Origin: Thermosynechococcaceae cyanobacterium Okahandja
Lineage (GTDB): Bacteria; Cyanobacteriota; Cyanobacteriia; Thermosynechococcales; Thermosynechococcaceae
Direction: 5' to 3'
Assembly: GCA_041530395.1 (NCBI GenBank)
Contig: CP136945.1
Coordinates: 1,240,001-1,304,000 of the forward strand
Length of the DNA stretch: 64,000 nucleotides
Part shown: one piece after another, positions 6,791-60,355 of the stretch
How positions within the stretch are numbered: position 1 is the first letter of the stretch
How the letters are laid out: every line of letters begins with the position of its first letter
Notes under the pieces: generated by a model
The model's input: the letters and a program-made list of their open reading frames with translations, nothing else
Told to the model about the DNA's origin: nothing
The model's database searches: none
Program-made: the position numbers and the translations under genes

Positions 6791-6987
6791 ATGATAGGAC
6801 AGGGGATGCACCTCGTTTGGAGATTCACAGTAGCCTTTACCCTGCTGGGATTAACGCCCCTTGCAGCGACAGCACGACCGCTAAACTGTCGTTCCCACGA
6901 AAGTACCTTTGTAGAAACGGAAACCCGTAGCTACTGGGTCAATATCTGTGGCGGTGACTTCCCTGCCTATTACATGGCATTCAAGAA
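6791..6987 (+). pseudogene. 5' part of a small secreted-protein gene, cut by the IsrB element
   Basis: Encodes a signal peptide-like N terminus (WRFTVAFTLLGLTPLAATA) and a mature start with CRSHESTFVETETRSYW and VNICGGDFPAYY, a pattern I associate with small cyanobacterial secreted proteins. At about residue 66 the frame enters the left end of the IsrB element and stops at 7036, so the last residues of the open frame are element-derived. Two ATG codons (6791, 6806) are possible; an AGGA fits the second. No recognisable 3' half is present beyond the element, although a Cys-rich frame stays open there (see findings). Confidence 0.7.
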
Positions 6988-7194
6988 CTCCCACCTGCTA
7001 AGGCGAGGTGGGAGAGTGGGGAGCCAGCCTCACTGAAACCTTGAATAGCCCATAGAGCCGAGTCCTGCCACGCACTTCCGGTTGCTTCTCTAGACCGGAT
7101 TATCTGCAAGCCTCCTGGCCTGAGGCGTTGGGAACGCCAAGACATGTTGGATTCGGTGGGCGAAGAGACTCAAACTCGAAAGAGGTTTATCACA
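6988..7194 (+). ncRNA. Putative omega-RNA (guide RNA scaffold) of IsrB
   Basis: In IscB/IsrB systems the omega-RNA is transcribed from the left end of the element just upstream of the nuclease gene, and its 5' end is a guide copied from flanking DNA. Here the 207 nt before isrB hold several hairpins: CTCCCACCT/AGGTGGGAG (6988-7014, 9 bp, perfect), GTGGGG/CCTCAC (7016-7033, one G-U), TCCGGT/ACCGGA (7077-7099) and GGCGTT/AACGCC (7124-7138). The frame of isrB is also open upstream to 7144, but this is better explained as RNA. The guide would be the roughly 16-20 nt to the left of 6988. Ends are inferred, not observed. Confidence 0.7.
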
Positions 7195-8349
7195 ATGCTA
7201 CGCGTTCCAGTTCTATCGCCTGACGGAAAACCGTTAATGCCAACCAAACCGAGCCGCGCCCGTCGCTGGATTCGAGATGGTTTGGCCGTAGGGAAGTGGT
7301 CAGATTTGGGCGTGTTCTATGTCCAACTAATTCGGGAACCATCTGGGGGAAAAAACCAACCGATTGCGGTGGGCATCGACCCCGGAAAGCGGTACTCCGG
7401 TATTGGAGTGCAATCACCCAAGGCAACTTTATTTTTGGCTCACCTAGTGTTGCCATTCCAAACGGTTAAAGACCGCATGGAACAACGCCGGATGATGCGA
7501 CGTGGGAGACGCGGGAGGAGAATCAACCGCAAGGTTGCCTACGCCAAACGCGCCCACAGACAGAAACGGTTTAATAACCGTCGGCAGAACAAACTACCGC
7601 CTAGTATTCGAGCCAATCGACAACTTGAATTCAGGGTCGTGAGTGAGATTTGCAAAATCTTTCCAGTGAGCAAGATTGTCTATGAGTACGTAAAGGCAGA
7701 GGGGTCAAAATCCTTTTCTCCTGTAATGGTGGGTCAACAAGTCATGTTAGGCTGGTTGGCAGAACTAGCTCCGGTTGAGACTCAGTTTGGGTACAACACC
7801 GCTAGCCTCAGAAAGCAGTTAGGGTTGGCCAAGTCGAACGATAAGGCAGTACAAGCACCTGAGAGCCATGCCGTGGATGGGCTAACTCTGGCGTGTTCTG
7901 AGTTCGTCAAATACAAACCGTTCCACACCGCCACTACGCACGGCCATACGTGGAGAGGAGCAGTGCAATTAACGTCTGCGGTTTTCAAGGGGATTCGCAG
8001 ACCTCCCATTTGTCGTCGGCAGTTGCATTTAATGCTTCCAGCCAAAGGTGGGGTGCGTCGTAAGTATGGGGGCACCACTACACGGCATGGTGTCCGGAAG
8101 GGGGATTTTGTTCGTGCAGAAAAGGCAGGGCGAACCTATATCGGCTGGGTGAGTGGAGATACTCAAAGGCAGATTTCTGTGAGCGATGCGAACTGGAAGA
8201 GACTAGGGCAATTTACTGCTTCTAAAGTCTCTCTTATTGTCCGTAGTACTGGGCTGGTCGTTTCGGGGGCATCGCACCCCACTCAACTACCGCTCCTATC
8301 CCTCCCCCGCCTGCGACGCGAGGATGGGGGTTTCTCGGAGGTTTTTTGA
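7195..8349 (+). CDS. isrB: IsrB: RuvC-only RNA-guided nuclease (IscB relative without HNH)
   Basis: 384 residues from the ATG at 7195. Domain order: PLMP domain (residues 1-50, with DGKPLMPT), RuvC-I with AVGIDPGKRYSGIGV (Asp62), Arg-rich bridge helix (about 94-133, MMRRGRRGRRINRK), RuvC-II IVYEYVKAEG (Glu164), RuvC-III SHAVDGLTLA (His225, Asp228), then a basic C-terminal domain with GGVRRKYGG and NWKRLGQF. Only about 60 residues separate RuvC-II and RuvC-III, so the HNH domain of IscB is absent, which defines IsrB. Known IsrB proteins are omega-RNA-guided nickases. All RuvC residues are intact, so the gene may be active. An AGAGG ribosome site is about 10 nt upstream. Not an ordinary TnpB: it has the PLMP domain and no zinc finger. 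Confidence 0.88.
   Translation: MLRVPVLSPDGKPLMPTKPSRARRWIRDGLAVGKWSDLGVFYVQLIREPSGGKNQPIAVGIDPGKRYSGIGVQSPKATLFLAHLVLPFQTVKDRMEQRRMMRRGRRGRRINRKVAYAKRAHRQKRFNNRRQNKLPPSIRANRQLEFRVVSEICKIFPVSKIVYEYVKAEGSKSFSPVMVGQQVMLGWLAELAPVETQFGYNTASLRKQLGLAKSNDKAVQAPESHAVDGLTLACSEFVKYKPFHTATTHGHTWRGAVQLTSAVFKGIRRPPICRRQLHLMLPAKGGVRRKYGGTTTRHGVRKGDFVRAEKAGRTYIGWVSGDTQRQISVSDANWKRLGQFTASKVSLIVRSTGLVVSGASHPTQLPLLSLPRLRREDGGFSEVF
8304..8330 (+). repeat. Right-end hairpin of the IsrB element
   Basis: CCCCC-G-CCT / AGG-AT-GGGGG with an 8 nt loop, followed by TTTCTCGGAGG and a run of six T at 8342-8347. It overlaps the last codons of isrB. The core CCTGCGACGCGAGG resembles the core of the left-end hairpin (CCTGCTAAGGCGAGG). 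The T-run means it could also end transcription. Confidence 0.6.
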
Positions 8350-8409
8350 TGAACTCTTGCGGGAACCTGTGCTGCGGCGTTGGTACTAGTGGCTCCGGCT
8401 GTGGTAAAT

Positions 8410-28048: not shown

Positions 28049-28386
28049 TGGGGGCGGAGGGACTTGAACCCTCACGACTTGTTTAAGGTCAACGGATTTT
28101 CATCCTCCTGCCGCTTTCGCGACCACCCAAGGGTGTTGAGGATTGGACTCTCCCTTTACCCGCGTAGTCGAACTACGGTAGGGTAGCTCCCGTCGAGTCT
28201 CTGCACCTTCCGCATCTACCGAGATCATGGCGCGATCGCCCCCCGAGATGCGGCTTGGCTCAGGATTGCCATATCTGCCAAGGGCAAACGTAGGTTTCCC
28301 TGAGTTTGAGAGCCGTCACTTAATAGATTTCTCTACTAAGGCTCAATTACTTAAGTCCGCAGCGTCTACCATTCCGCCACGCCCCC
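28049..28386 (-). tRNA. tRNA-Leu (anticodon TAA) interrupted by a group I intron
   Basis: Minus strand. 5' exon 28386-28353 (GGGGGCG acceptor, D arm, ends GGACTT) and 3' exon 28100-28049 (starts AAAATCCG, long variable arm TGAC...GTCG, T arm GTTCAAGTCCC, acceptor CGCCCCC plus A). Splicing gives an 86 nt tRNA with anticodon loop CTTAAAA, anticodon TAA. CCA is not encoded. The interruption after the wobble T of the anticodon is the classic cyanobacterial and chloroplast position. Confidence 0.95.
28101..28352 (-). ncRNA. Self-splicing group I intron of tRNA-Leu(UAA)
   Basis: 252 nt with no ORF. It begins AAGTAATTGAGCC and ends in G. Conserved core elements read on the minus strand: AACTCAGGGAAACCTA and AATCCTGAGCCAAGCC (P4/P5 side) and GTGCAGAGACTCGACGGGA (P7/P3 side). 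This is the ancient cyanobacterial tRNA-Leu intron studied in Anabaena. One loop carries a GCGATCGC palindrome. Confidence 0.93.
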
Positions 28387-60186: not shown

Positions 60187-60355
60187 GATATGACTCAGCT
60201 TATCCACATCTAGTCGAATTCTCAGGCAACAGTTCAAGGAAGAAATCGATAAAGTCTATTGGGGAAAAGCAAAACTCTAGCATGATTCTAAGTGCATCAT
60301 TTCTTGTGGAGGTGCGCCGCTAGAGACTGTCAAAGAGTATATTCAAAGTCAATCC
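60187..60355 (+). pseudogene. Remnant of IS200/IS605 Y1 transposase tnpA (C-terminal end)
   Basis: Translation gives DMTQLIHI in one frame (60187-60210), then after a frameshift RILRQQFKEEIDKVYWGKAKL (60215-60277), a TAG, and CIISCGGAPLETVKEYIQSQ up to 60352. This follows the C-terminal part of TnpA (SxLVNxLKGxSSRxLRxxFP, WG...W, SCGG...KxYIxxQ). The catalytic Tyr and HUH regions should lie upstream and are missing or unrecognisable, so it cannot move the element. Confidence 0.75.

Follow-up and report, generated by a model that had tools for sequence, protein, structure and literature searches.

Features of the interrupted locus and its IsrB protein

We analyzed a stretch of 64,000 nucleotides (hereafter, the window) from the 2.82-Mb genome of the Thermosynechococcaceae cyanobacterium Okahandja, in which an element carrying an isrB gene and an omega-RNA interrupts a gene for a small secreted protein. 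The features of this locus, in window coordinates, are as follows.

6791-6979 (+): 5' part of the interrupted small secreted-protein gene, of which relatives have an intact orthologue
6960-6979 (+): predicted guide, 20 nt, in the host flank directly 5' of the left end; placed by analogy with DtIsrB and different among copies
6980-8348 (+): whole IsrB element, 1369 bp, with left end TTCAAG... and right end ...GGAGGTTTTTTG
6980-7194 (+): omega-RNA scaffold, with covariation in 32 relatives and a core (7041-7180) found by a covariance model
6980-7045 (+): guide-adaptor region, comprising S1 (6980-6984 with 7041-7045), SL1 (6988-7014) and SL2 (7016-7033)
7023-7119 (+): adaptor pseudoknot, SL2 loop 7023-7027 with SL5 loop 7115-7119
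7087-7168 (+): nexus pseudoknot, SL4 loop 7087-7091 with 7164-7168
7195-8349 (+): isrB coding sequence, 384 aa plus stop; domain order PLMP, RuvC-I with D62, bridge helix, RuvC-II with E164, RuvC-III with H225/D228, C-terminal WED/TI with R336/Q339
8284-8348 (+): right end, with a subterminal hairpin (~8302-8328), GGAGG (~8337-8341) and then TTTTTTG
8349-8353 (+): target-site flank ATGAA, an NTGA-type TAM, found at all four copies and three empty sites
8349-8391 (+): 3' part of the interrupted gene, ELLREPVLRRWY and stop in the host gene's frame, matching HELLREPVLEPW and stop of relatives

Judged by its sequence, the reading frame at 7195-8349 is a genuine, intact-looking IsrB. IsrB proteins are compact RNA-guided DNA nickases akin to the ancestor of Cas9. 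A phmmer search against solved structures placed DtIsrB of Desulfovirgula thermocuniculi (8DMB, PMC9581776) at the top, aligned over residues 2-355 with an E value of 8.8e-56, whereas matches to IscB were much weaker (8e-11 or weaker). The NCBIfam IscB model covered residues 6-169 only and scored under its cut-off, and the Pfam match was RRXRR, which spans PLMP, RuvC-I and the bridge helix. An AlphaFold2 model of the protein (pTM 0.75) also found 8DMB as its best structural match in Foldseek (E 7e-31), with 305 residues aligned at Z 27.9 and 37% identity. Sequence and fold thus both bear out the identity proposed in the initial annotation, ahead of IscB and not TnpB. The catalytic residues D62, E164, H225 and D228 lie exactly where that annotation had placed them and are invariant in 21 of 21 cyanobacterial proteins aligned. 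Its estimate of about 60 residues between RuvC-II and RuvC-III was also accurate, as E164 and H225 have 60 residues between them, and an HNH domain sought in this interval by Pfam, alignment and the AlphaFold2 model was absent. An alternative in-frame ATG at 7144 would give a protein of 401 aa; we took 7195 as the start because relatives and a Shine-Dalgarno sequence favour it. The final base of the isrB stop codon, TGA, is the first A of the right host flank.

DtIsrB reads an NTGA TAM through R323 and Q326 (PMC9581776), which align with R336 and Q339 of the 384-aa protein in the phmmer alignment. We infer that the Okahandja protein itself recognizes the TAM, and RNA-guided nicking of the non-target strand is its predicted activity. 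The two proteins share the PLMP-RuvC-BH-TI layout without HNH, the NTGA motif at the target flank, and an omega-RNA with S1-S4 and two pseudoknots (SL2-SL5 and SL4-nexus). They differ in that protein identity is only ~34-37%, the scaffold measures 262 nt in DtIsrB and ~215 nt in the Okahandja element, and residues R124 and N265 of DtIsrB have no conserved counterparts. Closer counterparts are CwIsrB from Crocosphaera watsonii and DsIsrB from Dolichospermum, which are active in vitro with NTG TAMs and have omega-RNAs of group B2 (PMC9581776). These belong to the same cyanobacterial clade as the Okahandja protein and share its group-B pseudoknot pattern and predicted NTG TAM; their hosts are different, and their activity is biochemical, whereas that of the Okahandja protein is predicted from sequence. 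The homologue in C. watsonii WH 8501 (L020), which we infer to be CwIsrB, is 65% identical to the Okahandja IsrB. IscB/HEARO elements have in common with the Okahandja element the PLMP and RuvC parts, a guide 5' of the scaffold and an IS200/IS605-like setting, but IscB has an HNH domain. The Okahandja element therefore belongs to the already known IsrB family.

A conserved omega-RNA scaffold upstream of isrB

The hairpins that the initial annotation described upstream of isrB are real. The fold of 6980-7194 was unusually stable (z = -2.9, with equal stability in 1 of 200 shuffles), and strong compensatory change was seen in 32 relatives. When 32 upstream regions were aligned, a structure of 53 pairs patterned on that of DtIsrB (S1, SL1, SL2, S2, S3, S4, SL4, SL5, SL7 and both pseudoknots) was paired in 85.9% of cells, and its covariation score was 0.543 versus at most 0.19 in slid-partner controls. 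All five pairs of the adaptor pseudoknot showed two-sided changes (81% of cells paired), as did four of the five pairs of the nexus pseudoknot (98%), and the end pair of S1 switched jointly from U-A to G-C in 11 relatives. SL2, SL5 and SL7 were weakly supported, with 53-62% of cells paired in this alignment. The SL2-SL5 pseudoknot is the group B pattern seen in CwIsrB and DsIsrB.

A covariance model of the omega-RNA core was built from 24 sequences, drawn from other genomes and one phage, with no copy from the Okahandja genome. Its single match in the 64-kb window, at 7041-7180 (E 1.2e-33), agrees with the omega-RNA that had been proposed for this region. Across the genome the model matched four places, every one at an IsrB copy; therefore, there are no stand-alone omega-RNAs above threshold. 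The Rfam HEARO/omega-RNA model did not match the Okahandja element at its gathering score, nor did a permissive local scan yield a hit. A consensus sigma-70 promoter was looked for in the vicinity and not found. As read from the sequence, both the protein and the scaffold of the window copy appear functional.

In DtIsrB, a 20-nt guide precedes the scaffold (PMC9581776), and the corresponding position here is host sequence. Repeated units were observed in Microcystis phages. Upstream of the IsrB gene of Ma-LMM01 (NC_008562; L181:1682-1801, and at the same place in L186-L189) lie three to five copies of TGTCACTAACCCCGCC, the left-end/guide-adaptor sequence, at a spacing of mostly 38 nt that leaves ~20 nt between neighbours. 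The five phages vary in how many units they have and in what order, and the whole looks like either a small CRISPR-like array of guides and repeats or a stack of mini-elements.

Element ends, target sites and the altered guide of the window copy

The genome contains four near-full IsrB copies, the window copy and three others (L002, L003 and L004). Alignment of these copies, which have unrelated flanks, placed the left end of the element at 6980 (TTCAAGAA) and its right end at 8348/8349 (TTTTTTG/ATGAA; the slash marks the junction). Together with three empty sites, the alignment moved the element from the 6987-8355 given in the initial annotation to 6980-8348. An empty site for L002 was found in a relative (G003), where the joint reads GATTTTGAGATC/ATGAAACCC; the left flank of L002 ends in ...GGATTTTAAGCCC. 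Empty sites for two copies in Arthrospira sp. PCC 9108 (L011 and L051) were both found in genome G040, with joints TAATTA/ATGAAACC and TCGATTAC/ATGAAAG. At all three sites the insertion was exact, directly 5' of ATGAA and without target duplication, and in each the left-flank sequence, that is, the predicted guide, is followed by ATGA. An ATGA beside the guide source is consistent with the TAMs of DtIsrB (NTGA) and of cyanobacterial IsrB proteins (NTG). An empty site for L003 was sought in relatives and none was found; its left flank (a tRNA) and right flank (a response regulator) are not neighbours there.

The features of the right end are common to the four copies and to a fifth, 53-bp mini-element (L148, G000:C1:2167031-2167083), which consists of the two element ends only and sits directly 5' of the ATG of a long ORF. 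Subterminal hairpins and insertion beside a fixed short motif without target duplication are traits of the IS200/IS605 group, and the element has both. No TnpA (Y1 transposase) is encoded within it, and none was found near the other IsrB loci searched with two probes from the Okahandja genome. Therefore, the element is non-autonomous at most. Y1 transposase genes are present elsewhere in the genome; when the ends of these loci were compared with the IsrB ends as those of a possible partner TnpA, no significant similarity was detected. Several IS200/IS605 copies in the genome are degraded, and one of them left a Y1 fragment with a stop in the window (~60203-60352, +). Separately, a right-end-like remnant, CGGAGGTTTTG/ATGAGC, abuts an apparent start codon at G000:C1:1879509 (L157), apparently with no left end nearby.

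Copies L003 and L004 are damaged (R336K, a 9-aa insert, a 3-aa deletion in the bridge helix and a C-terminal frameshift) and, judging from DtIsrB mutants, are expected to lack activity. The two intact ones are the window copy and L002, with complete frames, all catalytic and TAM-reading residues and an intact omega-RNA. Two further observations concern the damaged copies. A 27-bp insert with an inverted repeat (GTACCCCCGCATGCGGGGGC) lies in the IsrB frame near codon 307 at L003:2395-2440 and at the same place in L004. The left flank of L003 (L003:1240-1285, CCCCCAAAAGAGGGGGTCTCTCGCAGG) looks like a former right end, which would fit the arrival of a second element at the same ATGAA; a similar sequence occurs twice in genome G006.

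The window copy still sits 5' of ATGAA, as other copies do, but its left flank has changed. In relatives the interrupted gene reads ...YYMA-RHKQDP...NRGTH-ELLREPVLEPW, whereas here the element comes after YYMA and is itself followed by ELLREPVLRRWY. Between the two gene halves 151 bp of host sequence are missing, flush with the left end of the element. The present guide ends in ...CTATTACATGGCA, and in relatives CGAC comes next, not NTGA. Because this flush deletion replaced the guide, the TAM-flanked target of the window copy has probably been lost, and its own guide is probably orphaned. A chromosomal rearrangement was considered, since the outer right flank maps elsewhere in relatives, and was ruled out on reading the gene through, as the 43 bp beside the element proved to be the interrupted gene's genuine 3' end. 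We found no earlier description of a guide altered by a flush deletion.

One scan yielded 67 IsrB loci, nearly all of them cyanobacterial, so that "rare", as the initial annotation had it, was too strong; further loci lie on plasmids and in Microcystis phages. Among 11 genomes of the genus, intact copies are present only in the Okahandja genome, and one other holds a fragment and an omega-RNA. The nearest relatives are the Arthrospira elements, with 82% protein identity. This patchy distribution points to horizontal spread. The two Arthrospira sp. PCC 9108 copies also share the element ends with the Okahandja element, and they differ from the window copy in occupying other genes and in having undamaged left flanks.

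Start-codon placement and the probable way of life of the element

Both Arthrospira copies lie at apparent start codons. We examined 44 right ends and kept the 37 with a clear junction before ATGA, this motif being a requirement for counting. In 21 of the 37, an ORF of ≥60 aa begins at the junction ATG, compared with background rates for ATGA sites of 17% in flanks (P 8e-8) and 23% in the window (P 1e-5), P values that are indicative only because the junction sequences are related and ATGA-selected. For 8 of 10 downstream proteins checked, the domain match starts within ~25 residues of the junction methionine, and several of the eight align from profile position 1 or 2. For Microcystis phage Ma-LMM01 (gp170) and a Dolichospermum plasmid, the gene start annotated by third parties coincides with the junction. 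A Shine-Dalgarno-like purine run is present in 19 of the 37 right ends, and those with the run face an ORF more often (15/19 versus 6/18 without it; Fisher P 0.008, read with the same caution). Stop and start overlap as TG/ATGAA in four copies (the window copy, L002 and the two from Arthrospira), where the IsrB stop borrows its last base from the target ATG. Because the ATGA at the junction is in many cases a start codon, and many right ends contain a Shine-Dalgarno sequence, a large share of insertions would leave the downstream gene translatable; the right-end sequence may serve that gene as a ribosome-binding site. Both tendencies look new. A search limited to the open-access literature, and hence weak, found no paper on placement of IsrB or IscB at start codons. 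The preference may be due in part or entirely to survivor bias, in which insertions at neutral sites are those that last.

Together, these results favor, with a probability of roughly 0.87, a non-autonomous IS200/IS605-like element that carries an IsrB nickase and its omega-RNA and is retained or spread by guided nicking, the window copy being one whose guide has been orphaned. The host sequence at the left occupies the place that encodes the 5' extension of the omega-RNA, that is, the guide. A Y1 transposase acting in trans would move the element as single-stranded DNA, and the IsrB-omega-RNA complex would then find the restored or still-empty site by a guide match followed by ATGA. A nick on the non-target strand ~8-11 nt from the TAM, as with DtIsrB, could be repaired from a chromosome copy still holding the element, and retention or spread would be favored. 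More tentatively, and in our judgement with the odds somewhat against it, cyanobacterial IsrB elements would home to start codons as such. Here the motif they need (TTCAT for the transposase, and ATGA on the opposite strand as the TAM of IsrB) would coincide with ATG starts, and the right-end Shine-Dalgarno sequence, with the TGATG overlap in one subclade, would keep the interrupted gene translated. The guide would be the displaced 5' region, and the nickase would attack the start region of empty alleles on other chromosome copies.

Damage in two of the four genomic copies, the 151-bp deletion at the left flank of the window copy, and the restriction of intact copies to one species of the genus, with a fragment in one other, could instead mean that a once active element is decaying in this lineage and that IsrB is an inactive copy becoming a pseudogene. 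We consider this unlikely, as the window copy and L002 keep full frames, catalytic and TAM-reading residues and the omega-RNA. It is more doubtful still that IsrB serves the host as an RNA-guided regulator, as TldR does for TnpB, binding gene start regions to control genes and not to promote the element. Guides that are displaced 5' untranslated regions, a TAM that is often a start codon, and an IsrB fixed at one site in five Microcystis phages would suit such a role, but nuclease residues are kept in all 21 proteins, the sites are scattered across unrelated genes, and both ends and target are typical of a mobile element. That the nuclease is a TnpB, or an IscB with a cryptic HNH domain, is scarcely credible: structure searches find RuvC folds common to the IsrB, IscB and TnpB families, but the best matches by sequence and fold are IsrB and next IscB, the RuvC-II to RuvC-III gap is only 60 residues, the guide lies 5' here and 3' in TnpB, and the sequence holds neither an HNH domain nor a TnpB zinc finger.

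Genomes with more than one copy, close relatives in which the site is empty and a simple junction motif make this clade suited to dissecting the natural role of IsrB, whose biochemistry is settled. A link between TAM, start codon and an element-borne ribosome-binding site would account for the survival of such elements in gene-dense genomes and predicts an effect on expression of the downstream gene. As a compact predicted nickase with a scaffold of 215 nt and a probably thermophilic host, this IsrB may be useful as a tool too. Elsewhere in the window, positions 28125-28362 (-) match a group I intron in Rfam at 64 bits, above the gathering score.
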